From a virus, in IMG/VR virus record IMGVR_UViG_3300004231_000008, positions 1 to 38,768 of that record: DNA of 38,768 nt. One strand, written 5' to 3'. Positions 2,882 to 38,707 of the stretch are shown here, one piece after another. Under the pieces are notes generated by a model. It saw nothing but the letters and a program-made list of their open reading frames with translations. It was not told where the DNA came from and made no database searches. Numbering within the stretch: position 1 is the first letter of the stretch; every line of letters starts with the position of its first letter. The position numbers and the translations under genes are program-made.

Positions 2882-2905
2882 TGGTATTGTTCTTCCTGGT
2901 AGTTT

Positions 2906-3268: not shown

Positions 3269-3666
3269 GCCAGGATTTCCGCTGCGCGCCCTGCCGCCAG
3301 CAATCCAACGGCTTCCAGCGCATGCACGCCAGCAGCCGTGTCGAGGTCATCCAGGTGAACCACGTCGGTGACCGCGTTCATCAGTTCGATGTAGTCGTTC
3401 ACCACCGGGTTTGTCGCACCAGCGGCGCGGATCGCGATGCGCTCGGCCTGCGTCATGCGCTTGAGGTAGGCGACTTTTCTCAGGACGCGAACGGGTGGTG
3501 CGGTGGGTGCGGTGAACACGCCGGTCGCCTCGTCGTGGCGCTTATGCAGGGTTGTGCCGAATTGCTCCTCCGTGATTTCAATCATGTGTTCAGCCTCAAT
3601 TGGGCTGTGTGTCATCGTTTCTGCGACAACGATGCGGGTTGCTATGTTGATTTGTGCGTAGAACAT
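3265..3666 (-). CDS. Hypothetical tail-region protein
   Basis: A 133-residue soluble protein. The first half looks beta-rich (MFYAQINIATRIVVAETMTH), with a Pro-rich linker at about 51-60. The second half is helical and Ala-rich (RKVAYLKRMTQAERIAIRAA). The arrangement, a small domain after the fibre genes with a helical C-terminal part, is like short tail-fibre-associated or assembly proteins in many siphophages. It is coupled to the membrane gene downstream. I do not recognise a named family. Confidence 0.6.
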   Translation of the reverse strand: MFYAQINIATRIVVAETMTHSPIEAEHMIEITEEQFGTTLHKRHDEATGVFTAPTAPPVRVLRKVAYLKRMTQAERIAIRAAGATNPVVNDYIELMNAVTDVVHLDDLDTAAGVHALEAVGLLAAGRAAEILA

Positions 3667-3668
3667 GA

Positions 3669-4091
3669 TTAATACCTCTCCACCACTTCGTAATTGATAA
3701 TTCCACCGCCCGTGTAACCTCCGCCACCGTTTACCGCCAACGTAGTTGAATTGCTCAGGTAGCCGCCAATCACCGCCTGGACAATCCCACTGTTATCTTT
3801 TCCGAATCCAACGCAATATGTTTGGCACTTCGCGATGTTCACAGCAGAAATGGTGATTGCCGTCACCGTCGGGGACGCGGTACCACGCTGAACACTCTTC
3901 ACTGCCCGGTCCCCCGTCGGCTGCCAGTTGGTCGGGTCGCTGGCCGGGTCGGTCGTGCCGCCGCCGGCGCTCTTGCGCATGTAGTACTGGAAGTCGCTGG
4001 GAGACGCGACAACCTTGGTAGCTGGATACGTGGTGCCACTGACCCAGAACTTGGGCGTGGCGCCCCCCAGAAAATCGCTTGCTGCGCTCAT
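3669..4091 (-). CDS. Tail-tip/fibre protein with W-x-SGTTY carbohydrate-binding-like module
   Basis: A 140-residue protein. Residues about 15-60 form a module beginning FWVSGTTYPATKVVASPSDF and ending in GGTTDPASDPTNWQPTG, which recurs in the two preceding ORFs. The C-terminal half is Gly/Thr-rich and beta-like (NGGGGYTGGGIINYEVVERY). The module resembles small chitin-binding-type (CBM5/12-like) beta folds by its aromatic spacing; this is inference. The position at the distal tail end suggests receptor or polysaccharide contact. It overlaps the preceding gene by 4 nt. Confidence 0.65.
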   Translation of the reverse strand: MSAASDFLGGATPKFWVSGTTYPATKVVASPSDFQYYMRKSAGGGTTDPASDPTNWQPTGDRAVKSVQRGTASPTVTAITISAVNIAKCQTYCVGFGKDNSGIVQAVIGGYLSNSTTLAVNGGGGYTGGGIINYEVVERY

Positions 4092-4759
4092 TGCGAAACC
4101 CTCCAGGTGGATGTTGAATATTTGGCGATCAGGTGGTGGGTATCCAGGTCCATGTCTTCGGCCAACGCCTCGATGGTGCTGCCGTTGCGGGCAAGCACGT
4201 TGGTGTAGCCGTTAGACGAGGTGACCTCCACCGCGTTGTTGTTGCCCGGTGTGGCGGGCAGGCTCAGAGTGCACACGCCTGCATAGATGATTTCGTAGTG
4301 GAGGCCGGCCACGGCGGTATAAGTGGCGGCGTTGACCTGCACGATGGGGCGGTTGAGGTCGATCAGTCCATAGTTGGTCGGGTCAAGACTCGGATCAGTT
4401 GTGCCTCCGGTGCTGGTGGTCAGCTTGCGGTACAGGCGGCCATTGGCGGGCGATGAAACCACGGTGTATTGCGCCACGGTGGAGCCACTGACCCACGGCG
4501 CGGCGCCGGCATAACCTGCGGCCAGGGCGGTGTTGGCAGCCGTAGACACCGCGTCGGCTGCGGTGAGCAATGCATTGGCATGAGCTGCCTGCGCGTTTGC
4601 GTAGACGTTGGCCTTCAGAAGGTTCTCGTCCGTCTGGAATTGTGGGAGCTGGCCTAAAAAGGCGTCTCCGTTGGCATCAAAATTCGCAGGGTTGGCAGTG
4701 CTCGGCGGTGTGCCGAGCGCCGGCCCGTCTGCTGGGGGTGCGACTGCTGGGGTTGGCAT
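4088..4759 (-). CDS. Tail fibre/receptor-binding-type protein
   Basis: A 223-residue protein. A Pro/Ala-rich N-terminus is followed by an Ala-rich helical stretch (about 45-85, ANAQAAHANALLTAADAVST), typical of fibre shafts or trimer stalks. One copy of the W-x-SG module follows (PWVSGSTVAQYTVVSSPANG to TDPSLDPTN), then a beta-rich C-terminal head. The head ends in TWRVSQ and contains NGYTNVLARNGSTIE, a pattern seen in phage fibre tips. It is coupled by 1-4 nt to the genes on both sides. It is likely part of the tail-tip adhesion complex; the target molecule is unknown. Confidence 0.65.
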   Translation of the reverse strand: MPTPAVAPPADGPALGTPPSTANPANFDANGDAFLGQLPQFQTDENLLKANVYANAQAAHANALLTAADAVSTAANTALAAGYAGAAPWVSGSTVAQYTVVSSPANGRLYRKLTTSTGGTTDPSLDPTNYGLIDLNRPIVQVNAATYTAVAGLHYEIIYAGVCTLSLPATPGNNNAVEVTSSNGYTNVLARNGSTIEALAEDMDLDTHHLIAKYSTSTWRVSQ

Positions 4760-5958
4760 CAGATTTCCTCAAGTTGAAGGGATACGTTTGCGGATGGATG
4801 GCGTTTGGCGTTGATCGTGAAAATCCTCCAAATGCCGGGGATCAAGAAGGCGTCGAACCAGTTACTACCGATCTGGTCATCCAGGGCGCTCCACAGCGCG
4901 ACCTTGGCGTTGGTGTCCACCCGAAGATCACGCAGCCTGTTGACCATGTCCGCCGTGGCGCGCAGGGTCAGGTTGGCCTTGGGCACCGTGGGGCGCGGCA
5001 CCAGGGTGGCGATGCTGCCGTCGATGTCGCGCTCAATCTCGCTGAAATTCAGCACGTCGCTCTCGGCGTCTTCGGTGGCCATGCCCATGTCTACCGCGCG
5101 GCCCAGGAAGACGCGGCCGCACTTGACGGTGGAGCCCGTGATAGTGATGGTGAGCGTGGCGCCCGACACCGGAGGGATATCGAACGCAATCAGGGCCGGC
5201 CGGTAGCGGAACGCGCCGAAGAAGTAATCGGTCCAGGTGAGGGTGTTGCGTAGCAGGCAGCTGATGGTCTTGTCGTAGTAGACCGTTGCGCCCACCGCCA
5301 GATGCAGGTTCACGCTGCTGCCGTACAGACCTGTGAGGCCAATAGCGTCAATGCGCGACGGCAAGGTGAGCACGTTTACCAGCGGGCTGGGTGCCACTGA
5401 TTGCTGACTGCTCTTCAGGTCGTGCATAGCCCACTTGCGGGTGGCGCCGGTGTCTTTCCAGTTCAGTGGATCCAGCTCGGGCACGATGGTGCCCGCGCCG
5501 GCAGAGATCCGCGTGAATTTGCGGTGCACGCCGGTGCGGATGACTTCATCTGCCGAAAGGTACGCGGTGCCGCTGATCCACACCCGCTCGTACGGGCCCA
5601 GATCCAGCCACTGCTCGGGGTTCAGCTCGGGCGACAGGGTGCGCAGATCCGTCCAATTGGTGGGGTCTGCAGAGGGATCTGTGGCCCCTGCGCCGGCAAC
5701 GATGCGCTTGTACTCGAATCCGTTGGCCGCGCTCTTGCGGATGTCACCAATGATGTAGGTGGTGCCGGTGACCCACAGTGGGTAGACCGCCATGGTGATG
5801 CGGCTGTATTCGTGGAACACGGTGCCGTCCACACGGCGGATATCGCCAACCGCATAGACGGTGCCGCTGACCCACAAGGCGGATGGCGCCACCGGCTCGG
5901 CCAGGGTGCTGCTGGTGAGTATTGCATCGGTGACAGTGATGGGGGGAATGCATTTCAT
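4759..5958 (-). CDS. Large tail-tip protein with three repeated W-x-SGT modules
   Basis: The ATG at 5958 overlaps the tape-measure stop as ATGA and gives 399 residues; the open frame upstream of it is antisense-like low complexity. Three W-x-S/T-G-T-x-Y modules occupy about residues 28-170 (LWVSGTVYAVGDIRR, LWVTGTTYIIGDIRKS, VWISGTAYLSADEVIR). They are followed by a beta-sandwich-like region and a C-terminal region (DVLNFSEIERDIDGSIATL). That last part resembles distal-tail or tail-adaptor proteins located right after tape-measure genes. Expected role: tail tip assembly and host-surface contact. Confidence 0.7.
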   Translation of the reverse strand: MKCIPPITVTDAILTSSTLAEPVAPSALWVSGTVYAVGDIRRVDGTVFHEYSRITMAVYPLWVTGTTYIIGDIRKSAANGFEYKRIVAGAGATDPSADPTNWTDLRTLSPELNPEQWLDLGPYERVWISGTAYLSADEVIRTGVHRKFTRISAGAGTIVPELDPLNWKDTGATRKWAMHDLKSSQQSVAPSPLVNVLTLPSRIDAIGLTGLYGSSVNLHLAVGATVYYDKTISCLLRNTLTWTDYFFGAFRYRPALIAFDIPPVSGATLTITITGSTVKCGRVFLGRAVDMGMATEDAESDVLNFSEIERDIDGSIATLVPRPTVPKANLTLRATADMVNRLRDLRVDTNAKVALWSALDDQIGSNWFDAFLIPGIWRIFTINAKRHPSANVSLQLEEI

Positions 5959-8900
5959 GGGGTTACCACGGTGACTTGAATGGAGTTGGTCTTGGGCATG
6001 GCCAAGGCCAACCGGCGGTCGAGCTTTTCGCCAGCACCGGCACCTCTGCCGGTGTTGGCTTCGATGGCATCCAGGCGCAGGGCCATGGCCCGCAGGGCGG
6101 CCACCATTTCGGTGTTGTCGCCACCGACCATGGCGGTGGTGTTCACCGCGTCGAAGGTGCGGGCCGGGGGGACATAGGCCGCCTCTTGCCACTTGGCCAC
6201 AGACAGCGTGGAGCCCGAGGACGGGACACCGGCCACACGGCCCAGCGAATCGACGATGTAGCCGACCAGCAGGGCCTGGTCGAGTGCGGTCTTGCTGCTG
6301 CGCTCCCCGGACTTGGCCAGCAGCTTGGCGATGTTGGGCAGGTCCTGGTAAGCCGCCAGGTTGCCGGCCTGGGCCTGCGCGATCTCTATGGCGAACTGGG
6401 CCTGCGTGCGGGCAAAGCTGTCTTTGCCGGTGCCTATCAGCGTTTCGCGCAGGTCGCGCATGGTGTCCACAATCGCCTGGGTGGCCCTTTGCCAGTCCGT
6501 CAGTCCGGTGGAGGCTGCACTACCGCCACCGCCACCTCCAGATGCGCCGCCTTGCGCATTCACCGGTGCTGTGATACCTGCAAAGGCCTTGGCCTGGGAC
6601 AGCACGGCGTCCGCGCCACGGGTGTTGCCAGCGGCAAGCAGCTGCTCGTACAGCGCGCGGGCATCGCCACGCGAGGCGTTGCCGATCTGGTCGACCGTCA
6701 GGTTGACGCCACCGTCAGACAGGCCCTTCTGGATCTGGGAGACCGTAAAAGCGCGAACCTCGGACGATGATGCGTAGTCACCAATGACGCTGGCCATGCG
6801 GGCAGCAGCGGCTTCGGATGCGCTAGCAGCAGCGTCAAACGCCGGGGATAAGGCCAGGATTCCGGCGACCAGGCGTTGGCCGGACTCGGTAGTGATGTCG
6901 ATGCCGGCGACCAGATCGCGGAATTGATCGCGGGTGGCGGGTGCAGACACGCCCAGCGCGGTGAAGGATGCGTTCAGGCTGGCAACACTGCTGGCGGCCT
7001 TTTCGCCGTCGCTGTAGAACTTTTCGTAGTAGGCTGAAACGGTGGACTGTGCCTTGTCGCGGCCGCCGAATGCATCCATCAGGCCCGCTGCAGCCGTGGC
7101 GCCGTCGATGCCCAAATGCAAGGCCGAGAAGCCCAACTGATCCAGGGTGTGGTTGACCGTTGTGAAATCAACGGCCAGGCGCTGCAGGGTCTGCGACGAG
7201 GTTTCGCCAGACTTGGTCAAAGCGCTGATATCCGCCCCGTAGGCGGCGCTGATCATGTCATCCACAAAGCCGCCAATGGCTTTGTCGATTGCGGCCTTTT
7301 GAGCATCGGGGTCGAGCCCACTCAGGCTCAAGTCGATCTGCTTGGTGAATCCGTCCACCGCATCAGCGCTCAGGCCAATGGCAGCGGCATAGCCCTTGGT
7401 GGCGGCCGTTACAACGGTGACGGCTGAGTTGACGTATGCCGATGTGCCGGCATCCGCTTCGGAGTACTCCGAGTTGTGGGTAGTAAACGCACCAATACCG
7501 AACAAGCCGTGGTGGTCTTCGGTGTAGTCGGTGCGCTTTTGGATGATGGAGCCGGTGGCCGACAAGGTGCCCGAGATACCATCGCCCACCTTGTCAATCT
7601 TGGGGCCGCCCAACTGGGTGGACAGCGCAAGCGCAACCCAACCCCACACCGGGATGGCGGCCATTGCGCTGGAGAAGCTCGCAGACGCGCCCGCGCCTGC
7701 GGTGATGGACGCCGCCGCTTCGGTGTAGGTGGCGGCCAGTGCGGCATTGGAGCCAACGATCTCAGCGGCGGCGGCGGTGTAGGCGGAAGCGGCGGCGGCT
7801 GCAGCCTCGGAACTGAGGGCAACACCCGCACCATAGGCGGAAATGCTGGCAGAGCCGGTGATGTTGCCGATGGCGGAAATACCGCCGCCCACGCCGGCCA
7901 TGCCGCTGCTGTAAATGCTGCTGCCGGTTTGGGCCAAGCCTACGCCGCTGGAAACTGTGCCCACCCCGCTGCCTGATGAACCCTGTGGGGATACGCCGAA
8001 GAAGCCCGCAATGCCCTTGGCCCAGTCACCCATGATGGGGTCGATGAAGGGCCGCAGCACCAGGCGGTCAAATGCGTTTACCACGGAGTCGCGGAAGCCA
8101 CGGACAGCACCGGCAACGCCGTCGCTCTTGATGCCGCCGATGATGCCGTCGGACAGGTCGCCTTTGATTTGGGATATCGCGCCGGCCCAGTATTGGACGG
8201 TGATGCTTGTGCTGGCCTGCGCGGCCTGCTCAGAGGCTTGCTGGGTCGCTGTGGCAATGGCCTTGTTGCGGTCTTCAACCGACTTGAAGTCGGTGCGTTT
8301 TAGCTCGGCGATCTTCTTTTCCAGATCCAGCTGGATGCGCAGTTTCTCCAGGCCGAGCGCACGCGCCTGGTCGGTGGCGCCTACCAGGCTGACCTCAAGT
8401 GCGCTGAATCGATTGATGGACTGCAGGGCCTGTGCCTGATCGCGGAATGTGTCGTCAACGCCTTTGGCGATCTGGGCGAGGCGCAGCTGCTCAGCAGTGA
8501 TGGCGGCGGCGTCTTCGCCCTTCATGGCCTCATAGGTGGCCTGGATGGCCTTCTTCTGCCGGTCCCACGCCACAGTGACGGCGTTCACGCCCTTAGTCTG
8601 CTCGGTCGCCCGCTCCTGTGCCAGCGCGGCGATCTGAGTGTCAAGCGCGACCACTTCTCGCTCGCTGTTTTGGCGGCCGGCCACGATGGCGCGCTCGGCC
8701 AGCAGGGCGTTGCGGCGCACATCTATTGCCTTGACGGTCTGCTCGGTGGTGGCGGTGATCTGGCCAATCTCTGTGAGCTGGCCGGTGGCGCGCAGGGTGT
8801 TGATCTGGTCTTGCGCGCGGGCGATGATCTGCAGCTTGGCGTCTTCGGCCTGCTTGACGGCGGCGATGCTGGTGCCGGTGTCGTACTTTTGATCAACCAG

Positions 8901-10400
8901 GGCGAGCTGGTCTCTTATTTCGGACGGAGAGGCCTTGGCAGCGGCACCGCGGTTGGTGATGGATTCCCGCTCGATGTCGCGCTTGTCCCGGTTGGGGCGG
9001 CTGGCGGCCATCTGGTCGCTCCAGGCCATCTGGGCTTTTTCCAGCTCGTTCTGCTTGGCCTTTTCGGCTGCAGAGCCGGCTATCACACTGGCCGACGACT
9101 GCAAGATGAACAGACGGTCTTTCTCAATCTTGAGCTGCTCGCGGGCTTGCTCCAGGCCTGCAAAGTTGACAATTGCTCCGAGGGGCGTATCAACCTTTTG
9201 CTGCAGTTCGGCCACGACTTTCTTTTGCGCCGTGACGCGATCAGGCAACGGCACTTCAGAGCCCGCGAAGCCCTTGACGGCCTTCATCGCACCTTCGACG
9301 TTTTGGCGGATGGACAGCCACATGCGGTCCACTGGGCCCAGACCGGCCTCTAGCCCGTCTGCCATGCGAGCCTGCGCCTGTGTGAATGCGTCTTGGGCCA
9401 GCTTTCCGGCCTCCAGGTGACGGCCGCGCTCCTCCAGCGCCTTGATCTGCGCGTAGATGCTGGCCGTGAGGTAGTTGGTCTTTTCGTTGAGGGTGACCGA
9501 AGCCTCAACGGGCGAGCGCTTGAGCGACTCATAGGCCTCGACCATCTTGGCGATGGCTGGGCCACCCAAGCGATCCAGACGGATGGCGGATGCGGTGACC
9601 CGCTCGATTGAGTCGGCTGACACGGCGCCTGATTTGGCAAAGTCGGCGAGTGCCGTGGCGTTGAGCCCGGCACTGGCCGCCATGGACTGCAATTGGCCCG
9701 CGCTGACGCCTGCCGCGCCACCGGTGAGGGTGACGGTGTCGCGCAGTTGCTTGGCATCGTTGGATGCGCTGTAGGCCGCATACCCCAGCGCCCCAACCGC
9801 CGCCGTGACCAGCACAACAGGGTTGGTCGCCAGACCGACGATATAGCCGCCCAGGGCCCGGGCCGCATTGCCCGCACCGCCAAACATATCCTTGAGCTGC
9901 CCACCTTGCTGCAGCAGCACAGTCAAGGGCGCCTGGCCGCCCTGCAGGCTGGTGACGATGTCGGTGAACTGCGCCGGCACACCGCGCAATGCCGCGCTGG
10001 TGGCCTTGGCGGACATCTCCATGCTGCCAAGGCCTTTGGTAGCCGCAATTTGGGCCCGCTCTGCGGCCTTGAGCTGGGCGATGTAAGGCGCGATGATGGC
10101 AGGGTCCACGCCCTTGAAGTCGGCCTTGATCTGCAGCGACTCCGACATGGACTTGCCAGCCGTGGCAAGGTCCACCTGCGCCCGCTGGATCTGGCTGACG
10201 ATGGACTTGGTGGCGCGCTCCACGGCCTTTGCAGAGGTGTCAGCACCCGTGCCGAGCTGGCCCAGGCCAGCGGCACCGGTCTTGCCCGCGTCGGACGCGG
10301 CTTGGCCCAGGCCGGCCAGGGAGCGCTTGGCGCGGTTGACACCGGCTTCTACGCCGCTGGCGTCCGCGCCAATTTCGATCTGAGTCTTCAAGCCAGACAT
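5955..10400 (-). CDS. Tail length tape-measure protein
   Basis: A 1481-residue protein, the longest gene here, directly after the tail chaperones. It sets tail length and is probably ejected with DNA. The N-terminus (MSGLKTQIEIGADASGVEAG) is followed by a conserved block at about 141-175 (VPAQFTDIVTSLQGGQAPLT, then LLQQGGQLKDMFGG), characteristic of the prophage tail-length tape-measure family (PF06791-like). Hydrophobic segments occur at about 185-205. Long Ala/Lys/Glu-rich coiled-coil stretches (about 300-700) lead to a Gly/Ala/Ser-rich central region with membrane-like segments (about 770-900). Ribosome-site quality is weak (TTGTCCTATTTTTG lies upstream in the reverse sense), so coupling to the chaperone gene 10 nt upstream is likely. 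Confidence 0.95.
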   Translation of the reverse strand: MSGLKTQIEIGADASGVEAGVNRAKRSLAGLGQAASDAGKTGAAGLGQLGTGADTSAKAVERATKSIVSQIQRAQVDLATAGKSMSESLQIKADFKGVDPAIIAPYIAQLKAAERAQIAATKGLGSMEMSAKATSAALRGVPAQFTDIVTSLQGGQAPLTVLLQQGGQLKDMFGGAGNAARALGGYIVGLATNPVVLVTAAVGALGYAAYSASNDAKQLRDTVTLTGGAAGVSAGQLQSMAASAGLNATALADFAKSGAVSADSIERVTASAIRLDRLGGPAIAKMVEAYESLKRSPVEASVTLNEKTNYLTASIYAQIKALEERGRHLEAGKLAQDAFTQAQARMADGLEAGLGPVDRMWLSIRQNVEGAMKAVKGFAGSEVPLPDRVTAQKKVVAELQQKVDTPLGAIVNFAGLEQAREQLKIEKDRLFILQSSASVIAGSAAEKAKQNELEKAQMAWSDQMAASRPNRDKRDIERESITNRGAAAKASPSEIRDQLALVDQKYDTGTSIAAVKQAEDAKLQIIARAQDQINTLRATGQLTEIGQITATTEQTVKAIDVRRNALLAERAIVAGRQNSEREVVALDTQIAALAQERATEQTKGVNAVTVAWDRQKKAIQATYEAMKGEDAAAITAEQLRLAQIAKGVDDTFRDQAQALQSINRFSALEVSLVGATDQARALGLEKLRIQLDLEKKIAELKRTDFKSVEDRNKAIATATQQASEQAAQASTSITVQYWAGAISQIKGDLSDGIIGGIKSDGVAGAVRGFRDSVVNAFDRLVLRPFIDPIMGDWAKGIAGFFGVSPQGSSGSGVGTVSSGVGLAQTGSSIYSSGMAGVGGGISAIGNITGSASISAYGAGVALSSEAAAAAASAYTAAAAEIVGSNAALAATYTEAAASITAGAGASASFSSAMAAIPVWGWVALALSTQLGGPKIDKVGDGISGTLSATGSIIQKRTDYTEDHHGLFGIGAFTTHNSEYSEADAGTSAYVNSAVTVVTAATKGYAAAIGLSADAVDGFTKQIDLSLSGLDPDAQKAAIDKAIGGFVDDMISAAYGADISALTKSGETSSQTLQRLAVDFTTVNHTLDQLGFSALHLGIDGATAAAGLMDAFGGRDKAQSTVSAYYEKFYSDGEKAASSVASLNASFTALGVSAPATRDQFRDLVAGIDITTESGQRLVAGILALSPAFDAAASASEAAAARMASVIGDYASSSEVRAFTVSQIQKGLSDGGVNLTVDQIGNASRGDARALYEQLLAAGNTRGADAVLSQAKAFAGITAPVNAQGGASGGGGGGSAASTGLTDWQRATQAIVDTMRDLRETLIGTGKDSFARTQAQFAIEIAQAQAGNLAAYQDLPNIAKLLAKSGERSSKTALDQALLVGYIVDSLGRVAGVPSSGSTLSVAKWQEAAYVPPARTFDAVNTTAMVGGDNTEMVAALRAMALRLDAIEANTGRGAGAGEKLDRRLALAMPKTNSIQVTVVTP

Positions 10401-10410
10401 TGGGTTTGTC

Positions 10411-11108
10411 CTATTTTTGTTGGTCGTTCATCGCGCTGAGCGCGGCCTGCTCCATGACCTGGATATCCAGTTCGAGCAGGTCAACTTCTTCGGGGGAAAG
10501 GTTCAGGCGGTCGAGCCTTCGGTGCAGCACGCCGTAGTCCAGGCCCGTGGGGCCGCCAAAGCCTGCGCGCCACTGGGTTCGCATGTAATAGAAAACGTCG
10601 AACGCCTGGTAGTGCTCTGGCCAGACTTCTGTGATGTCAAGGTCGGCCTCAGTAAGCCCTGCAGCTGCCAGCTCCCCCTTGCTGGGCGGAGCTGTAAAGA
10701 GTGCATGGCCTACAGCGGTAAGTTTCCCAAGCTGCCTTCGGTGACGGCTAGGCGGTAGCCGTCGACGATGGCGACGATTGCCGCGGGGAGTTCATCGCCT
10801 AGTTGCTCGCAGGCGGCGTGGGTGAAATCAGCCTCTACGTCCCATCCGTTGGCAATCTTCAGCAGGTAGTCGGCGTTGGCTAGGTCGGTTGCAGCCAGGT
10901 GGCCTGCAAGGGTGAAGGTTTCACCAGTCTCCAGTTCGGCGGCCTGCTTGACTGCCTGTGCGCGGGCTTCGTCTACCAGGGCGCCGAACTCTTTGCGCGT
11001 GCGGTAGATATAGTTCATTTCGATGCTTCCGGTGGTGCCGTCGAGCATGGTGAACTTGACTGTTTTCTTGAAGTGTTTGGGGGCAGCGCCCAGTTTGATT
11101 TTTGCCAT
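10411..11108 (-). CDS. Tail assembly chaperone, long (GT-like) -1 frameshift product
   Basis: Reading -1 after the heptamer at 10722-10728, the ribosome leaves the 0-frame stop (10710-10712) behind and continues for 103 codons to a TAG at 10411. The predicted fusion is about 232 residues. I translated the extension by hand. It contains ITEVWPEHYQAFDVFYYMRT and WRAGFGGPTGLDYGVLHRRL, the pattern of DUF1799-like second tail chaperones, and it has no ATG of its own near its start. In lambda the T domain reached by -1 slippage binds the tail tube. Slippage itself is inferred from the heptamer and frame. Confidence 0.75.
10710..11108 (-). CDS. Tail assembly chaperone, short (G-like) form
   Basis: The real start is the ATG at 11108 (MAKIKLGAAPKHFKKTVKFT), 132 residues. 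It has a beta-rich N-terminal half (TVKFTMLDGTTGSIEMNYIY) and a helical C-terminal half (FTHAACEQLGDELPAAIVAI). It lies between the tail tube gene and the tape measure, where lambda G lies. Such chaperones coat the tape measure before tail tube polymerisation. Its last codons contain the heptamer GGGAAAC in the phase needed for -1 slippage, making this the short product of a G/GT pair. Confidence 0.85.
   Translation of the reverse strand: MAKIKLGAAPKHFKKTVKFTMLDGTTGSIEMNYIYRTRKEFGALVDEARAQAVKQAAELETGETFTLAGHLAATDLANADYLLKIANGWDVEADFTHAACEQLGDELPAAIVAIVDGYRLAVTEGSLGNLPL
10722..10728 (-). promoter_or_regulatory. Predicted -1 ribosomal frameshift site (GGGAAAC)
   Basis: On the minus strand the heptamer is G-GGA-AAC in the zero frame, an exact X-XXY-YYZ slippery site like lambda's GGGAAAG. 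It lies four codons before the stop of the short chaperone. The -1 frame downstream encodes a conserved-looking domain without its own start. Confidence 0.75.
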
Positions 11109-11167
11109 GATGTTGTTGCTCTTAAAGTGAAGAAAAAAGACCCGGCAAGGTGCGACCAAGCGGGCAT

Positions 11168-11207
11168 AAAAAGGCCCCAGGGATTGGTGAATCCGAGGGT
11201 CCGGGCC
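11168..11207 (-). terminator. Intrinsic terminator candidate after tail tube gene
   Basis: On the minus strand, GGCCC pairs with GGGCC (11203-11207 with 11173-11177). An inner GGATT/AATCC stem lies between them and five T residues follow the outer arm. The structure is interrupted, so termination may be partial. It lies between the tail tube gene and the chaperone gene. Confidence 0.45.
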
Positions 11208-11222
11208 AAAACCGGTGAGGGC

Positions 11223-11867
11223 TTAGGTGGCGTAGCGCACTGGGCGGCCTTGCAGGGCGCAACCGCCTTTGCAAGCCATGAGGTTGCCCTTGGTGAGCGA
11301 TGGGGTCTCGTCGAAGGCAAAGATGCCGTTGTAGAGGATCATTCCGCCCTGTGGCAGGGTGGCCCGCAGACCGGTGGTGGCGCGGGAAATGGCGGCATTC
11401 TTGATAGCGATGTAGCCGGCCAGCGTGGGGTCGTCCGCGATCTCCAGGGCCAGCGATTGGGCGCTGGTGGTGGTGGGGATCTGCGAGTCAAAGTCTTGCT
11501 CCAGGAAGGAGTAGGTTTGGTATTGCGGATCGCCACCAGAGCTGGTGCAGCCCAGCACCTGCGTAATCTGTTGCCAGGTGTTGATCTTGCGGATGGTGCC
11601 AACGCCGGTGCCCGCCGGGAACAGGGTGGTACTGGTGGTATCGAAGCCCTCCAGTACCAGGTTTGCACCGGTGGGCGACTTGACGCGGAAGATACGGCCG
11701 TTGGCACGCGACCAGCCGGACGTGAATTCAACCAGGTCCAGCGCAGCAAGACCATTGACGACGGAAAGCACCGCCTCGGCCGCATTGGATGCGGCCGTGA
11801 CGGTGAGCGGAGCGGCATACGCCGTAGCGATGGCCAGGATGATGCCGTTGGGCAGCGAGACTGACAT
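11223..11867 (-). CDS. Major tail tube protein
   Basis: A 214-residue protein of the Phage_tail_3-like tail tube family. It starts MSVSLPNGIILAIATAYAAP, has beta strands with Gly turns (SGWSRANGRIFRVKSPTGAN), and carries the conserved central stretch RKINTWQQITQVLGCTSSGG followed by FLEQDFDSQIPT. It forms the stacked hexameric rings of the siphovirus tail. A good ribosome site (AAGGAA) precedes the ATG. The gene has terminator-like hairpins on both sides, suggesting it is partly insulated and may be expressed at a level different from its neighbours. Confidence 0.9.
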   Translation of the reverse strand: MSVSLPNGIILAIATAYAAPLTVTAASNAAEAVLSVVNGLAALDLVEFTSGWSRANGRIFRVKSPTGANLVLEGFDTTSTTLFPAGTGVGTIRKINTWQQITQVLGCTSSGGDPQYQTYSFLEQDFDSQIPTTTSAQSLALEIADDPTLAGYIAIKNAAISRATTGLRATLPQGGMILYNGIFAFDETPSLTKGNLMACKGGCALQGRPVRYAT

Positions 11868-32507: not shown

Positions 32508-33052
32508 CCCCCACCATCCTCACGTCCAGCGGGCGCTATTTCAACCTGGTAGAGCCCAACCATCACCACGTCAACATCGGCGAGATTGCCCACGCGCTCT
32601 CGCACATCTGCCGCTTTACCGGCCACGTGCGCAACTTCTACAGCGTGGCCCAACACAGCTACCACGCCAGCTACCTGGTGGACCGCGAATACGCCCTGCA
32701 GGCCCTGCTGCACGATGCTGCCGAGGCCTACATCGGCGATGTTGCTAGCCCACTCAAGCGCCTGCTGCCGGACTACAAGGCCATCGAGGCACGTGTGGAG
32801 GCCGCCGTGTTCAAACACTTCAATTTGCCAACGGATCTGCACCCCAGCGTCAAGAAGGCCGACCTGATCATGCTGGCCACCGAGCAGCGCGACCTGATGC
32901 CAGAGCACGCCGACCAGTGGGCAAGCATCAAGAGCATTGAACCCATGCCGCAGCCTCTGCTACCCATGCCACCCCAGACAGCGCGCTACTGCTTTCTGGA
33001 CCGCTTCTTTGAACTCACCATCCACAACACCACCGACCAGGACCTGTCATGA
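32504..33052 (+). CDS. HD-domain phosphohydrolase
   Basis: A 182-residue protein of the HD superfamily. The metal site is visible: His51 in NFYSVAQHSYHAS, His70-Asp71 in QALLHDAAEAYIGD (with Glu74, Asp79), and a later Asp in KKADLIMLATEQRDLM. The opening SSGRYFNLVEPNHHHVNIGE is typical of YfbR-like phage hydrolases that dephosphorylate nucleotides. Such enzymes alter nucleotide pools during phage growth; this is inference. It is coupled by 4 nt to the P-loop gene and to the first DGR target gene. Confidence 0.85.
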   Translation: MTPTILTSSGRYFNLVEPNHHHVNIGEIAHALSHICRFTGHVRNFYSVAQHSYHASYLVDREYALQALLHDAAEAYIGDVASPLKRLLPDYKAIEARVEAAVFKHFNLPTDLHPSVKKADLIMLATEQRDLMPEHADQWASIKSIEPMPQPLLPMPPQTARYCFLDRFFELTIHNTTDQDLS

Positions 33053-33444
33053 CCACAAAACCCGCAACCACCTCCATCCCCTTCGCCCAACTGCCAGCCA
33101 TCGGTGCCGACCTCGACGGCGCCACATTCTTTGGCATCACCACCCGCAAAGACGGCACCCACTGCGCAGCCTTCCTGCTGCCCGATCAGGGCGAAAAACT
33201 CACCTGGAAGAAGGCCATGAACTGGGCCGCAAAACTCGGTGGCGAGCTACCCAGCCGCCCTGTGGCCGCCCTGCTGTTCGCCAACCTCAAGGCAAATCTG
33301 AAACCCATGTGGCACTGGACCAGCGACGAAGACGACGCTTCCTACGCCTGGGGTTGCACCTTCAGCTACGGCACCCAGATCACCAACCACAAGAGCTACG
33401 AGGGCTGTGCTGTTGCCGTCCGCTTGATTCCCATCACCGCTTAA
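33049..33444 (+). CDS. DGR target protein 1 (DUF1566/C-type-lectin-like)
   Basis: A 131-residue protein. The core LTWKKAMNWAAKLGGELPSR followed by PVAALLFANL and MWHWTSDEDDASYAWG matches the DUF1566 (Lcl_C)-like lectin fold used as a display scaffold by many DGR targets. The last 35 residues carry the variable repeat: CTFSYGTQITNHKSYEGCAV. There is no signal peptide or membrane anchor. It starts by ATGA coupling to the HD gene. Diversified surface residues T, S, Y, T, I, T are set by VR1. The partner or ligand is unknown. Confidence 0.9.
   Translation: MTTKPATTSIPFAQLPAIGADLDGATFFGITTRKDGTHCAAFLLPDQGEKLTWKKAMNWAAKLGGELPSRPVAALLFANLKANLKPMWHWTSDEDDASYAWGCTFSYGTQITNHKSYEGCAVAVRLIPITA
33337..33423 (+). 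repeat. Variable repeat VR1 of DGR target 1
   Basis: An 87-bp segment aligned to the template repeat (34522-34608). It has 8 substitutions, all at template adenines: AAT to GGT (2), AAC to ACC (3 codons), to AGC, to TAC and to ATC. All other template bases are identical. The last 39 bases are unchanged and include the GC-rich end (GGCTGTGCTGTTGCCGTCCG) that acts as the initiation-of-homing region in known systems. Confidence 0.95.
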
Positions 33445-33475
33445 TCCTTCAATCCTTTTTTCACTGGAACCAACC

Positions 33476-33934
33476 ATGTCCCAAGTCACCCTAGAAGCCG
33501 TCCAGGCCAAGCAAACCGAACTGGCCGCAATGATCCAGCAGCTGCAGAGACAAGTCGTCAGCACCACCCTGATCGAGATTGAAGACTGCACCATCGAACT
33601 CGACCCAGGCGAGCGCTATGCCGGCGCCGTGTTGGACGACGAAGGCCAGCACAAGCACCACCTGGTGCTGATGGCCCAGCGCCCCACCGACAAGCTCAAC
33701 TGGCAAGCCGCTATGGACTGGGCCACCAGCATCGGCGGTGCCCTGCCCTCCCGCCAGGAACAGGCCCTGCTCTACGCCAACTGCAAACCCCACCTGCAGC
33801 CCGTGTGGCACTGGTCCTGCGAAACCCACGCAGACGAGGCTTCCTACGCCTGGGGTTGCTACTTCGACTACGGCTACCAGTACGGCTACCGCAAGAGCTA
33901 CGAGGGCTGTGCTGTTGCCGTCCGCAGAGTCTGA
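33476..33934 (+). CDS. DGR target protein 2 (DUF1566/C-type-lectin-like, Tyr-rich variable end)
   Basis: A 152-residue paralogue of target 1. Its N-terminus has a short coiled coil (about 5-28, EAVQAKQTELAAMIQQLQRQ) that target 1 lacks. The shared core is LNWQAAMDWATSIGGALPSR with ALLYANC and VWHWSCETHADEASYAWG. The last 31 residues carry VR2: CYFDYGYQYGYRKSYEGC, strikingly Tyr/Gly-rich, as in binding surfaces. Its own ATG follows a 31-bp spacer. Oligomerisation through the coiled coil is inferred. No signal or membrane segment. Confidence 0.9.
   Translation: MSQVTLEAVQAKQTELAAMIQQLQRQVVSTTLIEIEDCTIELDPGERYAGAVLDDEGQHKHHLVLMAQRPTDKLNWQAAMDWATSIGGALPSRQEQALLYANCKPHLQPVWHWSCETHADEASYAWGCYFDYGYQYGYRKSYEGCAVAVRRV
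33838..33928 (+). repeat. Variable repeat VR2 of DGR target 2
   Basis: A 91-bp segment aligned to the template (34521-34611). It has 11 substitutions, all at template adenines: AAT to GGT, AAC to TAC in five codons, AAC to GAC, AAC to GGC and CAC to CGC. All eight AAY codons of the template are altered. Identity includes AGA beyond the point where VR1 ends, so VR2 shares a slightly longer end with the template. Confidence 0.95.
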
Positions 33935-33974
33935 TTCCTTCAATCCTTTAATCCTTTGAATTGAGCCCCGCCAA

Positions 33975-34337
33975 ATGGCCATGCACTCCGATCTTCCGAT
34001 CTACCAAACCGGCATAGACCTGCTTGACCTTGCAGTCAAGGCCCAGGTGCAAATGCCGCGCACTGTCAAACGTGCGCTCGGTGAAAAGATCACCCAGCAC
34101 TGCGTTGAAATGCTTGACCTGATGGCCTTGGCAAATGCCACGCAGCGCGATACCCGCGCTGGCCACATCGAGCAGCTGCTCGCTCGCCAGCGCGCCATGA
34201 CGGTGCTACTGCGGGTTAGCTTCAATGCTAGATACATCTCGCCCACGCTATGGGCCGTGTCTATCGAACTGCTGGGCAGCATCGGTAAGCAAGCCGGCGG
34301 ATGGCTCAAAAAATCGAACAGGGCGCCTGCTGTATGA
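33975..34337 (+). CDS. avd: Avd-like accessory variability determinant
   Basis: A 120-residue helical protein matching the Avd family in size, position and pattern. It has four amphipathic helices, with YQTGIDLLDLAVKAQVQMPR, then TVKRALGEKITQHCVEMLDL and LLARQRAMTVLLRVSFNARY, then SPTLWAVSIELLGSIGKQAG. The Avd barrel of five helical bundles binds the reverse transcriptase and template RNA and is needed for retrohoming. It precedes the template repeat directly, as in the Bordetella phage. Its stop overlaps an ATG in the RT frame (ATGA at 34334). Confidence 0.9.
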   Translation: MAMHSDLPIYQTGIDLLDLAVKAQVQMPRTVKRALGEKITQHCVEMLDLMALANATQRDTRAGHIEQLLARQRAMTVLLRVSFNARYISPTLWAVSIELLGSIGKQAGGWLKKSNRAPAV

Positions 34338-34424
34338 CGGTCAAGGCCCTCACACCCGTGCGCAATTTGAATCTGGTCGCGCCGCTGCCCCACAAGGGCA
34401 CCGACATGCACACCACGGAGACCG

Positions 34425-34521
34425 CTGCCCGCGGGCAGGCCCGGTCCGGTGCAGCCTCTAACCTGATCGGTGCACATGCATGCATGGACCTTCGGAGTAG
34501 CGGCCTACATAGCGCGCTATG
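34425..34521 (+). other. Structured spacer between avd and template repeat (two perfect palindromes)
   Basis: CTGCCCGCGGGCAG (34425-34438) and CATAGCGCGCTATG (34508-34521) are perfect 14-bp palindromes. The second ends exactly where the template repeat starts. A shorter ATGCATGCAT lies at 34476-34485. In other DGRs the RNA flanking TR folds and primes cDNA synthesis, so these are candidate elements. Function inferred. Confidence 0.6.
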
Positions 34522-34611
34522 GCTTCCTACGCCTGGAATTGCAACTTCAACAACGGCAACCAGAACAACAACCACAAGAGCTACGAGGGCTGTGCTGTTG
34601 CCGTCCGCAGA
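34521..34611 (+). repeat. DGR template repeat (TR)
   Basis: The 91-bp donor sequence. It carries eight AAY codons (one AAT, seven AAC) in the phase that matches the targets, giving WNCNFNNGNQNNNHKSY. It ends in the GC-rich GGCTGTGCTGTTGCCGTCCG shared with both variable repeats. AAC codons allow many amino acids but never a stop when adenines are randomised. TR overlaps the 5' part of the open RT frame in another phase. Confidence 0.95.
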
Positions 34612-35713
34612 TCCATACCTGTTCCAGCTGCTGGTGCAGGCCTACCTCGATTGCCGTCGCACCAAGCGCACCAGCGCCAGTGCCATGGCCTTCGAGGCCC
34701 AGGCCGAGCACAACCTATTCCAACTGCATGAAGAGCTGGCCTCGGGCACCTACAGGCCCGGCGGCTCCATCTGCTTTGTCATCACACACCCCAAGCCACG
34801 CGAAGTGTGGGCCGCACGGTTCCGCGATCGCATAGTCCACCACCTGCTTTACAACTTCATTTCGCCGCGCTTCCACGCCCGCTTTGTGGCAGGCAGCAGC
34901 GCCTGCATTCCGGGCCGCGGAACACTCTACGCGGCCAAGATGCTGGAGCACCAGGTGCGCAGCCAAACCCAGAACTGGAGCCGCCCGGCGCACTACCTTA
35001 AGTGTGACCTGGCCAACTTCTTTGTATCCATCGACAAGGCTGTGCTGCTGGAGCAGCTGCAGCGCCAGGTGACCGAGCCATGGTGGATGTCGCTGGCCGA
35101 GGTCATCCTGATGCACGACCCGCGCAACGACGTGGAGGTGCGTGGCACCCGCGCCGAGCTGGCCCTGGTGCCTCCACACAAGAGCCTGTTCAACGCAGCC
35201 CAAGGTTTCGGTCTGCCCATCGGCAACCTCAGCAGCCAGTTCTTTGCCAACGTGCTGCTGGATGACCTGGACCAGTTCGTTAAACACACGCTGCGGGCTC
35301 CTACCTACGTGCGCTACGTGGATGACTTCGTGCTGTTGCACGACAGCCCGCAGTGGCTTAACCAGGCCAAAGCGCAGATCGAGGCCAAGCTGGCCGACCT
35401 GCACCTGCAGCTCAACCCCCGCAAAACCATCCTGCAGCCCGTAGCGCGTGGCATTGACTTCGTGGGCCACCTGGTCAAGCCATGGCGGCGCATCACCCGT
35501 CGCAGGACGGTAAACGTCGCGCTGGCCCGCCTGCAAGACATGCCAGCAGCCGACCTGCACCAGAGCGCCAACAGTTACTTCGGCCTGCTACGCCAGGCCA
35601 GCCACAGCCACCACGACCGCACCCGTATCGCCAAGCTGATGCTTAAGCGCGGCCACGTCGTGCAGGGCGATATCACCAAGATTTACCGCAAGAAAGGCTC
35701 CACCCATGTCTGA
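34598..35713 (+). CDS. DGR-type reverse transcriptase
   Basis: The open frame runs from 34301, but homology begins about 34607 (DPYLFQLLVQAYLDCRRTKR), so I chose the TTG at 34598 with GAGGG 8 nt upstream (371 residues). GTG 34592, CTG 34595 and ATG 34334 (ATGA overlap with avd) are alternatives. Motifs: KPREVWAARFRDRIVHHLLY, catalytic Asp in LKCDLANFFVSID, QGFGLPIGNLSSQFFANVLL (DGR-specific I-G-x3-S-Q), YVRYVDDFVLL (the metal-binding YxDD) and LNPRKTILQPVARGIDFVGH. No thumb/maturase or nuclease extension is seen, unlike group II intron RTs. It copies TR RNA. Confidence 0.92.
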   Translation: MPSADPYLFQLLVQAYLDCRRTKRTSASAMAFEAQAEHNLFQLHEELASGTYRPGGSICFVITHPKPREVWAARFRDRIVHHLLYNFISPRFHARFVAGSSACIPGRGTLYAAKMLEHQVRSQTQNWSRPAHYLKCDLANFFVSIDKAVLLEQLQRQVTEPWWMSLAEVILMHDPRNDVEVRGTRAELALVPPHKSLFNAAQGFGLPIGNLSSQFFANVLLDDLDQFVKHTLRAPTYVRYVDDFVLLHDSPQWLNQAKAQIEAKLADLHLQLNPRKTILQPVARGIDFVGHLVKPWRRITRRRTVNVALARLQDMPAADLHQSANSYFGLLRQASHSHHDRTRIAKLMLKRGHVVQGDITKIYRKKGSTHV

Positions 35714-37757
35714 ATTCGCCAACCTCCCGCTGGACGTCATCACCAGCAGCCTCACCAACCCACGCAAGACCTTCAACGCCGCCAAGCTGGCCGAGCTGGC
35801 TGAATCCATCAAGGCCACCGGCGTGCACCAGCCCGTGCTGGTGCGCCCCCTGCCCGGCACCCGCGTGTCCGACACCGAGCGTGGCGTGCAGTACGAGCTG
35901 GTGTGCGGTGAGCGCCGCTACCGTGCCAGCGAAATGGCAGGCGTGACCACCATCCCCGCCATGGTGCGCGCCCTGACCGACGACCAGGTCATGGAGATCC
36001 AGCTGGTTGAAAACCTGCAGCGCGACGACCTGTCGGATCTGGAAGAGGCCGAAGGCTATGACGCCCTGATGCAGCACGCCGGCATCACCGCCGACTTGGT
36101 GGCCGCCAAGATCGGCAAGAGCCGCTCCTACGTCTTTGGCCGCCTCAAGCTGCTGGACCTGTGCCAGGAAGCCCGCTCCACCCTGCGCGAGGGCAACATC
36201 GACTTCAGCCGCGCCCTGCTGGTGGCCCGCATCCCCGACACCAAGCTGCAGATAAAGGCCATGAAGGAGATTCTGGCGGGCCAGGGCTACTACGGTGGCT
36301 ATGGCAGCGGCAAAGACCCGATGACCTACCGCCAGGCCGCCGAGCACGTCCAGCAGAACTACATGCTCAAGCTGTCCGACGCTAAGTTCAAGATCACCGC
36401 CGTGGATCTGGTCCCCGCTGCCGGCAGCTGCAAGGCCTGCACCAAGCGCACCGGCCATGACCCCGACCTGTTCAGCGACGTCAAGGGTGCAGACGTGTGC
36501 ACCGACCCGCCATGCTTCCACAAAAAGGAAGACGCCCACGCCGCCGCCCTGGTGGCCACCGCCAAGGAAAAAGGCCAGACCGTCATCGCGGGCAAAGAGG
36601 CCCAGGAGCTGGCCCTGACCAACTACGCCGGCACCAAGTTCAAGGGCTACAAGCGCCTGGACAGCGCCGAAGACAGCCCGACCGGCGCGCCCCTGCGCAA
36701 GATCATTGGCGAGCAGATGAAGGCCGAGGGCATCAAGCCCGTGATGATCGCCAACCCCAACCAGAAGGGCGCTATGGAAGAGTGCCTGCCCAACGAGGTA
36801 GCCCTGCGCCTGCTCAAGACCGTGGAGGGCCAGGCCGCAGCCGCCAAGGCCGTCACCCAAGAGGTGAAGGACCTGGTCAAAGACAAGAAGGCCAAGGCCG
36901 AAGCCAAAGCCAAGGCCCAGTTCGAGCAGGAGTGGCGCAACGACTTGATGATGGAAGCATGGTGCGTCATGCGCGACGATGCAGACATTCAGGCGTTTGA
37001 TACCTCCGTGCATCGCTACCTGGTGCAGCGTGCCGCCAGCAGCCTCAGCACGGACGATGCCGCCGCCATCTGCAAGATCTTGGACCTGGGCAAGGTCTCC
37101 CCCGTTGCCGGCGTGATCGCCTTCGCCAAGGAAACACCCATCCCCGAGATCCTGCACCTGCTGATCATCATGCAACAGGCATCCAGCGCCAACGAGCACT
37201 CCTATGGCGGCCGCATCGCCAATGAAGGACTGATGCTGGTGGCGGGCAACGTGTTTGGCGCGCAGCTGCCGGTCGAAATCAAGGAAATCAAGGCCGAGGC
37301 AATGGCCCGTCTGATGCCAAAGGAGGCCAAAAAAGCAAATGTCGCTCCCGCTCCCGCTGCGCGGCCTAAGGAGGGGCCGGGAGGATCAAAGGGCAAGGGG
37401 TCTGCGCCCAAAGCACCACCCGCCCGCGCTTTGAGGTTGTCGGCCAAGGAGGCAACACAAGGCATCGCTGACGCGCTGCAGGGCATCGAGGGGGCTGCTT
37501 CTGCGCCTGTGGGCGCAGTGGCGCAACCCGCTGGGCCAGCAGGGGGCGAGGTGCCCAACGTGAGCGCCGACAAGCCCAAGATCGGCGCGGCCGTGCAGAT
37601 CACCGCCGACCGGCTCAACCCCCGCCAGCAGAAGTTTGCGGGCAAGAAGGGCACCATCACCGGCAAGGTTGGCGCGGCATGGGACGTGTCATTCAAGGGC
37701 CGCACGGGTGGAATCAGCAGCTTTACCGAAGACCAGATTACGGTGGTGGCAGCATGA
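35706..37757 (+). CDS. ParB-like protein with Cys cluster and C-terminal SH3-like tail
   Basis: A 683-residue protein. Residues 1-110 are a ParB/Srx-type N-domain with GERRYRA (68-74) and VENLQR (101-106). A helix-turn-helix is at about 127-150 (ITADLVAAKIGKSRSYVFGR). A Cys cluster (C-x2-C then C-x4-C, about 242-270) suggests zinc binding. An Ala/Lys coiled coil lies at about 380-410, a Pro/Ala-rich linker at about 545-610, and the end (GKKGTITGKVGAAWDVSFKG) looks like a KOW/SH3-like barrel. ParB CTP-switch proteins bind DNA; here the role may be phage DNA handling rather than partition. It overlaps the RT gene by 8 nt. Confidence 0.85.
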   Translation: MSEFANLPLDVITSSLTNPRKTFNAAKLAELAESIKATGVHQPVLVRPLPGTRVSDTERGVQYELVCGERRYRASEMAGVTTIPAMVRALTDDQVMEIQLVENLQRDDLSDLEEAEGYDALMQHAGITADLVAAKIGKSRSYVFGRLKLLDLCQEARSTLREGNIDFSRALLVARIPDTKLQIKAMKEILAGQGYYGGYGSGKDPMTYRQAAEHVQQNYMLKLSDAKFKITAVDLVPAAGSCKACTKRTGHDPDLFSDVKGADVCTDPPCFHKKEDAHAAALVATAKEKGQTVIAGKEAQELALTNYAGTKFKGYKRLDSAEDSPTGAPLRKIIGEQMKAEGIKPVMIANPNQKGAMEECLPNEVALRLLKTVEGQAAAAKAVTQEVKDLVKDKKAKAEAKAKAQFEQEWRNDLMMEAWCVMRDDADIQAFDTSVHRYLVQRAASSLSTDDAAAICKILDLGKVSPVAGVIAFAKETPIPEILHLLIIMQQASSANEHSYGGRIANEGLMLVAGNVFGAQLPVEIKEIKAEAMARLMPKEAKKANVAPAPAARPKEGPGGSKGKGSAPKAPPARALRLSAKEATQGIADALQGIEGAASAPVGAVAQPAGPAGGEVPNVSADKPKIGAAVQITADRLNPRQQKFAGKKGTITGKVGAAWDVSFKGRTGGISSFTEDQITVVAA

Positions 37758-38707
37758 GCGAGAACACCAAAATCGAGTGGGCCGACCACACGTTTAACCC
37801 CTGGATAGGGTGCATGGCCATCAGCCCTGGATGCACCAACTGCTATGCGGCTGAATGGGCCGAACGGTATGGGAAAGACTTTGCAGCACGCACCCGCACC
37901 AAGACCTGGGGCGATCCGGTGAAGTGGAACAAGAACGCGGATGCGTTCTTTGCCGAGCATGGGCGACGGCAACGGGTGTTTTGCGCTTCACTGGCCGATG
38001 TGTTTGACAACACAGTGCCAGAGGGGTGGCGCATTGACTTATTCGCGCTGATCGAGGAGACGCCCCACCTAGACTGGCTGCTGCTCACCAAGCGGATTGG
38101 AAACGCCGCTGGCATGCTGCCGTGGAGCGCTTGCAGTGAGCCATGGCCAAATGTTTGGATTGGCGCCACCATCGTCAACGAGGAAGAAGCCGATCGGGAC
38201 ATCCCGAAGCTTTTGGCAGTACCTGCCGCCAAGCGGTTTCTGAGCATGGAGCCGCTGCTGGGGCCGGTTGACCTAGACACAATCTACAACACGGATTTTG
38301 GAGAAAGCCAACCGTACTTGCACCCACTGATCGGCCGTGTCAGCGATGGCCATGGCGACGGCTGCAGCGCGCCGGCTATTGATTGGGTCATCGTCGGCGG
38401 AGAGAGCGGCCCAGGAGCACGCCCCATGCACCCAGATTGGGCTCGTAGCCTGCGCGACCAGTGCGTGGCCGCTGGTGTGCCTTTCCTGTTCAAGCAGTGG
38501 GGAGAGTGGACGCCGGGCGTCAATGTTGAACGCCAGCGCGGAGTCATTCCTATCGCAAGTCTGTGGAACAACGAATGGCAGATATCAAAACTGAACTTGG
38601 CAACCGACGGGGGTCACATTGACGATGAGCCTGATCTGTACCGCGTTGGCAAAAAAGAAGCCGGACGCCATTTGGACGGCCGCACGTGGGATGGGGTTAC
38701 ATCATGA
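37754..38707 (+). CDS. DUF5131 (Gp37/Gp68) three-Cys-motif protein
   Basis: A 317-residue protein opening with MSENTKIEWADHTFNPWIGC and PGCTNCYAAEWAERYGKDFA. Cys20, Cys27 and Cys30 form the C-x6-C-x2-C motif of the Gp37/Gp68 family, suggesting a 4Fe-4S or radical-SAM-like site. LLLTKRIGNAAGMLP, FLSMEPLLGPVDL and IDWVIVGGESGPGARPMHPD are the other conserved blocks. It is known in phages and mobile elements, often near DNA-processing genes, but the reaction is not settled. Its ATG overlaps the ParB-like stop (ATGA). Confidence 0.9.
   Translation: MSENTKIEWADHTFNPWIGCMAISPGCTNCYAAEWAERYGKDFAARTRTKTWGDPVKWNKNADAFFAEHGRRQRVFCASLADVFDNTVPEGWRIDLFALIEETPHLDWLLLTKRIGNAAGMLPWSACSEPWPNVWIGATIVNEEEADRDIPKLLAVPAAKRFLSMEPLLGPVDLDTIYNTDFGESQPYLHPLIGRVSDGHGDGCSAPAIDWVIVGGESGPGARPMHPDWARSLRDQCVAAGVPFLFKQWGEWTPGVNVERQRGVIPIASLWNNEWQISKLNLATDGGHIDDEPDLYRVGKKEAGRHLDGRTWDGVTS

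Follow-up and report, generated by a model that had tools for sequence, protein, structure and literature searches.

A two-target diversity-generating retroelement in the putative early operon of a phage, with an RT-15 RNA as the candidate leader of its template

Introduction

The diversity-generating retroelement (DGR) of Bordetella phage BPP-1 (mtd-avd-TR-brt; Rfam RF03022, Phage_DGR) has a template repeat (TR) that begins at the end of avd and a structured spacer (RF03022, locus 2301-2433) behind it, with 219 nt from the TR to the core of the reverse transcriptase (RT). Here we describe a DGR cassette on the plus strand, at 33049-35713, of a 38.8-kb phage sequence (IMG/VR record IMGVR_UViG_3300004231_000008, hereafter the window, to whose whole length all positions refer). 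This cassette shares with that of BPP-1 the adenine-specific copying, Avd, a homologous RT, a C-type-lectin target and the target-avd-TR-RT order, but the layout of its RNA is the reverse: 183 nt of an RNA known to Rfam as RT-15 (RF03018) precede the TR and no more than 28 nt separate it from the RT core, whereas RF03022 finds no match in the window and the structured spacer between TR and RT is absent. Besides, BPP-1 diversifies a single tail target (mtd), while the window carries two small targets in what appears to be an early operon. From the comparisons presented below, the locus is very probably a two-target DGR of the early/lysogeny operon of a Burkholderiales-type temperate phage, in which an RT-15 leader and a closing helix would present the TR.

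Different layouts of the RNA are found in other DGRs. In Bacillus phage BalMu-1, an RT-14 RNA lies 3' of the TR, and in five of the first six outgroup cassettes examined the TR is separated from the RT core by 170-344 nt and preceded by no more than 34 nt. The layout of the Bacteroides phages F2/F4 and BS-TP1, on the other hand, resembles that of the window. In the case of F4/F2 (loci L159, 2741-2951, and L164; labels of this kind denote the cassettes of relatives), the 5'-leader layout comes with a possible AGUUAUCUG/CAGAUAACC helix (UUAUCUG/CAGAUAA) at the end of the TR, and no RT-15 match was obtained in Bacuni F4. The 5'-leader architecture may then be broader than RT-15, to judge from these sequences.

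There is also a resemblance to retrons (msr-msd-RT), in which a 5' structured RNA is followed by the template and pairing brings the 5' part to the 3' end of that template. The window shares this RNA geometry with them, but its RT is of the DGR type and its product would be a mutated complementary DNA (cDNA) homing into variable repeats (VRs). By each core feature tested (TR/VR differences confined to adenines, an RT with YxDD motif, Avd and a lectin scaffold with a C-terminal VR), the cassette is a DGR.

As regards the number of targets, two-target cassettes account for about 13% of the DGR cassettes analysed in PMC10743442 and have also been found in PMC8143477 and PMC6642488, and two targets per DGR are not rare as such. 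The gut phages with two-target DGRs (nd4/nd12 tentaclins, PMC10743442; Bacuni phages, PMC8143477) share with the window one TR and two C-type-lectin or DUF1566 targets, but they have different hosts and a second target that is distant or N-terminally varied, and the Bacuni RT is only about 33% identical to that of the window. Burkholderia phage Magia, the Pseudomonas phages Haboob, phPA-G, Cruim01 and LPPA56, and Shewanella phage vB_Sb_QDWS belong instead to the same lineage as the window, with RTs that are 60-64% identical, two adjacent targets, RT-15 and an early location. In Magia, the lectin-fold DGR targets had already been noted by the depositors and there is a third, remote target; in the Pseudomonas phages, the targets reach about 220 aa.

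RT-15 as candidate leader and a probable helix closing the template

The RT-15 RNA, the candidate structured 5' leader of the template RNA, covers positions 34321-34524 (cmscan; 156.2 bits for a gathering score of 82, E 1e-37), between avd and the TR (34521-34611, as defined by repeat comparison), and ends 4 nt inside the latter. It is missing from the preliminary description of this DNA, and its name in Rfam conveys no function. The 24 relatives scanned have RT-15 in the same position, and, as in the window, it adjoins the 5' end of the TR in nearly all relatives. That RT-15 goes with the TR is concluded from a genome search that started from RT-15 and covered two bacterial families (40 loci when the two centre genomes are included, 28 of them new), since a TR and at least two VRs lie beside 27 of the 28 new loci, the exception being L139. 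A class-wide RT-15 search returned the centre genome itself as the sole match among 369 genomes. In the literature, neither a link of RT-15 with a DGR template nor the closing helix described below was found by a search outside which the source paper of the RT-15 family lay, and priority is therefore uncertain.

The idea of a helix came from the side-by-side reading of the leader and the end of the TR, in which an invariant-looking AAUCUG of the leader faces CAGAUU at the 3' boundary of the TR. A segment of RT-15 that is otherwise unpaired (UUGAAUCUG, 34367-34375) pairs across the TR with the sequence at its 3' boundary (CAGAUCCAU, 34608-34616), both strands being delimited by covariation. In an alignment of 97 distinct loci, scored with a G statistic after average product correction, only one of 71,253 column pairs scores higher than the pair 34369-34614 (G 93.7, standard deviation 4.0). 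This pair, whose covariation is as strong as that of the stems of RT-15 itself, occurs as G-C in 61 loci, U-A in 21, C-G in nine and A-U in two, with 97% standard pairs, the remaining top-ranked pairs with near-complete pairing being RT-15 stems. The whole helix, named beforehand, was evaluated in 72 distinct sequences (five TR ends were set by hand, some of them from sibling loci): 85.8% of the cells are paired, as against 77.2 +/- 0.9 in shuffles and at most 46.8 in slid versions, and there are 58 double changes, as against 24.5 +/- 3.6 in shuffles. Traced on a tree built from the RTs of 123 loci, the pair 34369-34614 changes 16 times, and its base in the leader and its base at the TR end 13 times each, so that about 10 of the changes coincide. 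There are also individual loci in which both strands have changed: in L060, L069 and L086 the core CUG/CAG is replaced by CCG/CGG, giving perfect 10-bp helices (with the RT far away in L069 and L086), and L148 has the form CAACCUG/CAGGUUG. This covariation argues for a helix of 8-9 bp that joins the leader to the 3' boundary of the TR and thereby encloses the template.

The position of the helix can also be compared with the extent of the VRs. Among 200 VRs, the edge of the identity between VR and TR coincides with the first base of the helix in 38, precedes it in three and lies beyond it in the others; in the window, the identity of VR1 to the TR ends exactly at 34608. A competing pairing of UCUGGU with ACCAGA inside the TR, obtained with RNAalifold for the leader, the TR and the RT start, was rejected: the TRs that have no ACCAGA (L027/L030, L038) keep the same leader, and it is the TR-end pairing that covaries.

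Adenine-specific variation and signs of recent activity

In the preliminary description, this region had been presented as a two-target DGR with adjacent parts, and target 1, target 2, Avd, TR and RT are all confirmed in their places by repeats, PHROGs and Pfam. Target gene 1 (33049-33444; 131 aa in the list of open reading frames) contains VR1 (33337-33423, 87 bp), and target gene 2 (33476-33934; 152 aa) contains VR2 (33838-33928, 91 bp). The 8 and 11 differences from the TR that had been counted in these two repeats were reproduced by our TR/VR comparison, and 19 out of 19 fall on TR adenines; given 24 adenines in the 87-base template, the chance of all changes falling on A is 1.3e-5 for VR1 and 8.9e-8 for VR2. 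When the window was scanned without gaps on its two strands, VR1, VR2 and the TR were the only copies recovered, with no third VR. The varied codons are mostly AAC/AAT, and the encoded peptides are ASYAWNCNFNNGNQNNNHKSYEGCAVAVR in the TR, ASYAWGCTFSYGTQITNHKSYEGCAVAVR in VR1 and ASYAWGCYFDYGYQYGYRKSYEGCAVAVR in VR2. Substitutions at non-adenine template positions in related genomes, which had been named as a refuting finding, are very scarce: over 211 distinct pooled TR/VR pairs, A is changed at 42.9% of sites, T at 0.8%, G at 0.2% and C at 0.1%, and 98.6% of the TR/VR differences across relatives are at A.

The protein components are those expected from a DGR. The accessory variability determinant, a four-helix-bundle protein, is encoded by avd (33975-34337) and matches PHROG 3206 'Avd' with E 8e-24, and Pfam bAvd with E 9e-10 and 39.4 bits (cut-off 40). 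The RT (34634-35713) matches PHROG 1423 (E 1e-110) and Pfam RVT_1, and the best solved structure for its family profile is the BPP-1 DGR RT (8ub7, E 5e-43), far above the retron RTs in the same comparison, which agrees with its earlier designation as DGR-type. Its motifs YVDD (at about 35315-35326) and GLPIGNLSSQ are invariant in an alignment of 16 relatives. The start of the gene is uncertain: the frame is open from 34301, uninterrupted through RT-15 and the TR, and translation could begin at a GTG at 34634 or else within or upstream of the TR. Conservation sets in at 34634-34640, and the GTG is the likeliest start. In several relatives, the possible RT start codons are located solely inside the TR, and therefore the N-terminus of the RT may be encoded by the template itself.

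An indication that the system operates comes from L005, L006 and L007, three viral contigs, of which L005 and L006 were compared by an ungapped alignment of 10.7 kb. They have 52 differences over that length, and in 9.3 kb of it (2514 to 11812) the differences are confined to the VRs, one in VR1 and 14 in VR2, with identical TR, RT-15 and RT; 14 of these 15 are at template adenines. Because the two differ there solely in the VRs, and nearly always at template A, the cassette seems to be active in this close relative, whose RT is 87% identical to that of the window phage, and their sequences point to recent mutagenic homing.

A lineage with two targets and a T-rich element

A search with the RT led to 21 viral contigs, to cultured phages of Burkholderia, Pseudomonas and Shewanella, and to 80 loci in bacterial contigs, mostly of Burkholderiales, Rhodocyclales and Pseudomonas. 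Two or more VRs are carried by 97 of the 109 loci, and two targets can therefore be considered the normal form of this lineage. Relative to the RT, the first two VRs are generally located around -700 to -850 and -1200 to -1540. A third VR match, usually remote, is present in 21 loci, and in L014 and L065 the extra matches are fragments of a single VR. Among the loci with one VR or none, several are truncated and others have a TR displaced from the RT.

A hairpin behind the VR is used by BPP-1 (PMC12875486). This hairpin, for the initiation of mutagenic homing, is not evident in the window, where the stems 3' of the VRs do not exceed 5 bp; some relatives, mostly from Pseudomonas, have hairpins of 7-8 bp. 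What follows the VRs of the window is a T-rich element with a period of 8 nt, located at 33440-33461 behind VR1 (CTTAATCCTTCAATCCTTTTTT) and at 33933-33960 behind VR2. Elements of this type (ATCCTTCAATCCTTT) follow the VR in 58 of 91 proximal, 53 of 86 distal and 16 of 23 remote cases and the TR in only one of 96, with fewer than one per group in shuffles, and the frequency of a TT-TT spacing of 8 is 0.079, compared with 0.010 in shuffles. We propose that this candidate cis element helps to mark the VR as recipient.

A possible mechanism and its implications

The mechanism that would fit these elements begins with the binding of RT-15 by RT-Avd. The closing helix, and not a structured spacer 3' of the TR, would present the 3' end of the TR to RT-Avd, and cDNA synthesis would start at about C34608 and run leftward through the TR. 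By analogy with msr in retrons, the primer could be the 2'-OH of a leader residue, for example the invariant unpaired G34376. Adenines would be miscopied during cDNA synthesis, and the mutated cDNA would then replace VR1 or VR2, recognition depending on the shared GC-rich end and perhaps on the T-rich element. The outcome would be variation at 7 residues in VR1 and 9 in VR2, located on what is predicted to be the binding face of the two small C-type lectins. More generally, and on balance somewhat favoured by the data, DGRs might have two RNA architectures: in the one described here, RT-15 would be a 5' leader, the helix of UUGAAUCUG with CAGAUUCAA and its covarying forms would set the cDNA start in a retron-like geometry that replaces the 3' spacer of BPP-1, and the T-rich element would replace the hairpin as homing mark.

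Several observations do not sit well with this proposal. L139 has an RT-15 (191.8 bits) in whose vicinity the only RT match is short and weak and no TR or VR is detectable (there is no A-biased repeat), possibly as a result of decay or of a different use of RT-15, and L075 has an RT and a TR-like sequence but no RT-15 match. The single-sequence fold of 34321-34620 lacks the helix, two of whose nine pairs are mismatched in the window itself, and the stability of this fold does not exceed that of shuffles (z +0.79). Moreover, among the 14 positions of VR2 at which L005 and L006 differ, one corresponds to a template T (adjoining an A), and the priming residue in the leader is a conjecture.

If the proposal is right, it would provide a function for an RNA family listed by Rfam merely as RT-15 and reveal an alternative mode of template presentation in DGRs. 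It would also offer a compact RNA-TR unit, free of the RT gene, useful for studying priming and, in laboratory strains, for engineered diversification in vivo.

The lectin targets, their genomic setting and alternative readings

Both targets had been called lectin-like, and AlphaFold2 models (predicted local distance difference test of 95.7 for target 1 and 93.7 for target 2) together with their fold matches support it: the best match in the PDB is, for the two of them, the C-terminal domain of Legionella Lcl (8q4e; E 1.4e-5 for target 1 and 3.1e-5 for target 2), which target 2 also matches by profile (E 2.6e-4). Target 1 is a free-standing Lcl/DUF1566-type C-type lectin domain, with a weak Pfam Lcl_C match that stays below the cut-off. 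Target 2 consists of an N-terminal helix (residues 6-27), absent from target 1, and a C-type lectin domain, and in the alignment that helix belongs to a segment common to the proximal targets of many relatives. The targets of the lineage are small, with a median of 154 aa over 210 target calls and a range of 120-220 aa. A protein resembling target 1 (gp4, 53% identical) is encoded in EBPR siphovirus 1 (JF412302.1, 1937-2350), in which the matches listed include no DGR RT and the first 14 kb were found to contain no TR/VR pair.

The ATG of target 1 overlaps the stop codon of the upstream YfbR-like gene (ATGA), and overlaps of this 4-nt kind chain target 1 to three upstream genes, which are early; at the other end, the RT overlaps a ParB-like gene. 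The structural genes of the window are on the opposite strand, and Cro/CI-like regulators flank the early region. In the relatives, ParB follows the RT on the same strand in 36 out of 36 cases, YfbR and the repressor are also on that strand, and Cro and the primase are mostly on the other one; none of four structural markers is found within their loci (up to 8 kb). In the annotated phages, the cassette is near repressor, recombination or integrase genes. Gene order and strand thus place the targets, as far as can be judged, in an early/lysogeny operon and not in a tail operon, and this position lowers the weight of a tail-fibre reading. The temperate nature claimed in the preliminary description is supported indirectly, by the Cro/CI-like regulators and by the many relatives that reside in bacterial contigs. 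The 38.8-kb fragment itself yielded no integrase.

What, then, might such lectins be for? They could well be non-virion proteins, made early or by the lysogen and acting, for example, in superinfection exclusion, in the binding of variable factors of the host or of rival phages or in display by the lysogen, a reading that we find plausible while still short of probable. Their location on the strand of the CI-like repressor and among early genes, both in the window and in annotated relatives, is in line with it, as is the lack of an evident signal peptide or membrane anchor on the window targets (10 of 203 N-termini pass a loose limit in a crude hydropathy scan, not SignalP); cytosolic C-type lectins, however, would be unusual. 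Alternatively, the cassette may be an ordinary DGR of the BPP-1 type whose lectins are receptor-binding adhesins of the virion, on the tail tip, their gene position being incidental. Most of the viral DGR targets known are tail proteins (PMC8144416), and the target domain is a ligand-binding C-type lectin, but the virion role seems rather doubtful in view of the size of the targets, in which no tail-anchoring domain was found, the chaining of target 1 to early genes, the overlap of the RT with the ParB-like gene, the opposite strand of the structural genes and the absence of structural markers near loci that do contain ParB, YfbR and the repressor. The mtd of BPP-1, by contrast, is annotated as a tail protein beside its cassette. 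The placement of the window targets suggests that temperate phages also have DGR targets away from the tail module, whose function is testable in the cultured phages of the same lineage.

As for the RNA, RT-15 might be a cis-regulator of RT translation, with the helix between the leader and the TR end as a switch of the mRNA, outside the template RNA. The 3' strand of the helix does overlap the start region of the RT frame in most loci, but a few loci make this explanation improbable. In L050, L052, L069 and L086, whose TR seemed absent at first, RT-15 lies about 1.0-1.5 kb upstream of the RT and the TR is beside RT-15, with the closing strand and the helix retained, while another gene and a distance of 0.9-1.2 kb separate the TR from the RT core. 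The intervening gene is DNA-methyltransferase-like in L050 (5022-6123) and L052 (5800-6901), and in L069 (7129-8001) and L086 (6820-8001) the intervening genes encode SCGAASAV or SGGKDS motifs. Furthermore, it is exactly the TR that the helix encloses, and the edge of VR identity lies at the base of the helix. The same loci with the RT elsewhere rule out that the 3' strand is conserved merely as RT code. Finally, a decayed or inactive DGR is very hard to reconcile with the intact RT catalytic motifs, Avd, VRs and RNA pairs and with the signs of recent activity in relatives with 87% RT identity.

Other observations

Some additional features were noticed along the way. A DUF5131 phage gene lies at the right end of the window (37679-38707). 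The records OP650936.1 ('Hujiaoplasma phage zrk29-1') and OK094664.1 ('Shewanella phage vB_Sb_QDWS') have equal length (47,902) and equal match identities, and one of the host labels may be wrong. In relatives of the window phage, a C4 antisense RNA (RF01695) is found upstream of the cassette of L012 (3071-3154), and two near-identical tandem tRNA genes, possibly an attachment site, lie downstream of that of L002 (12491-12672).

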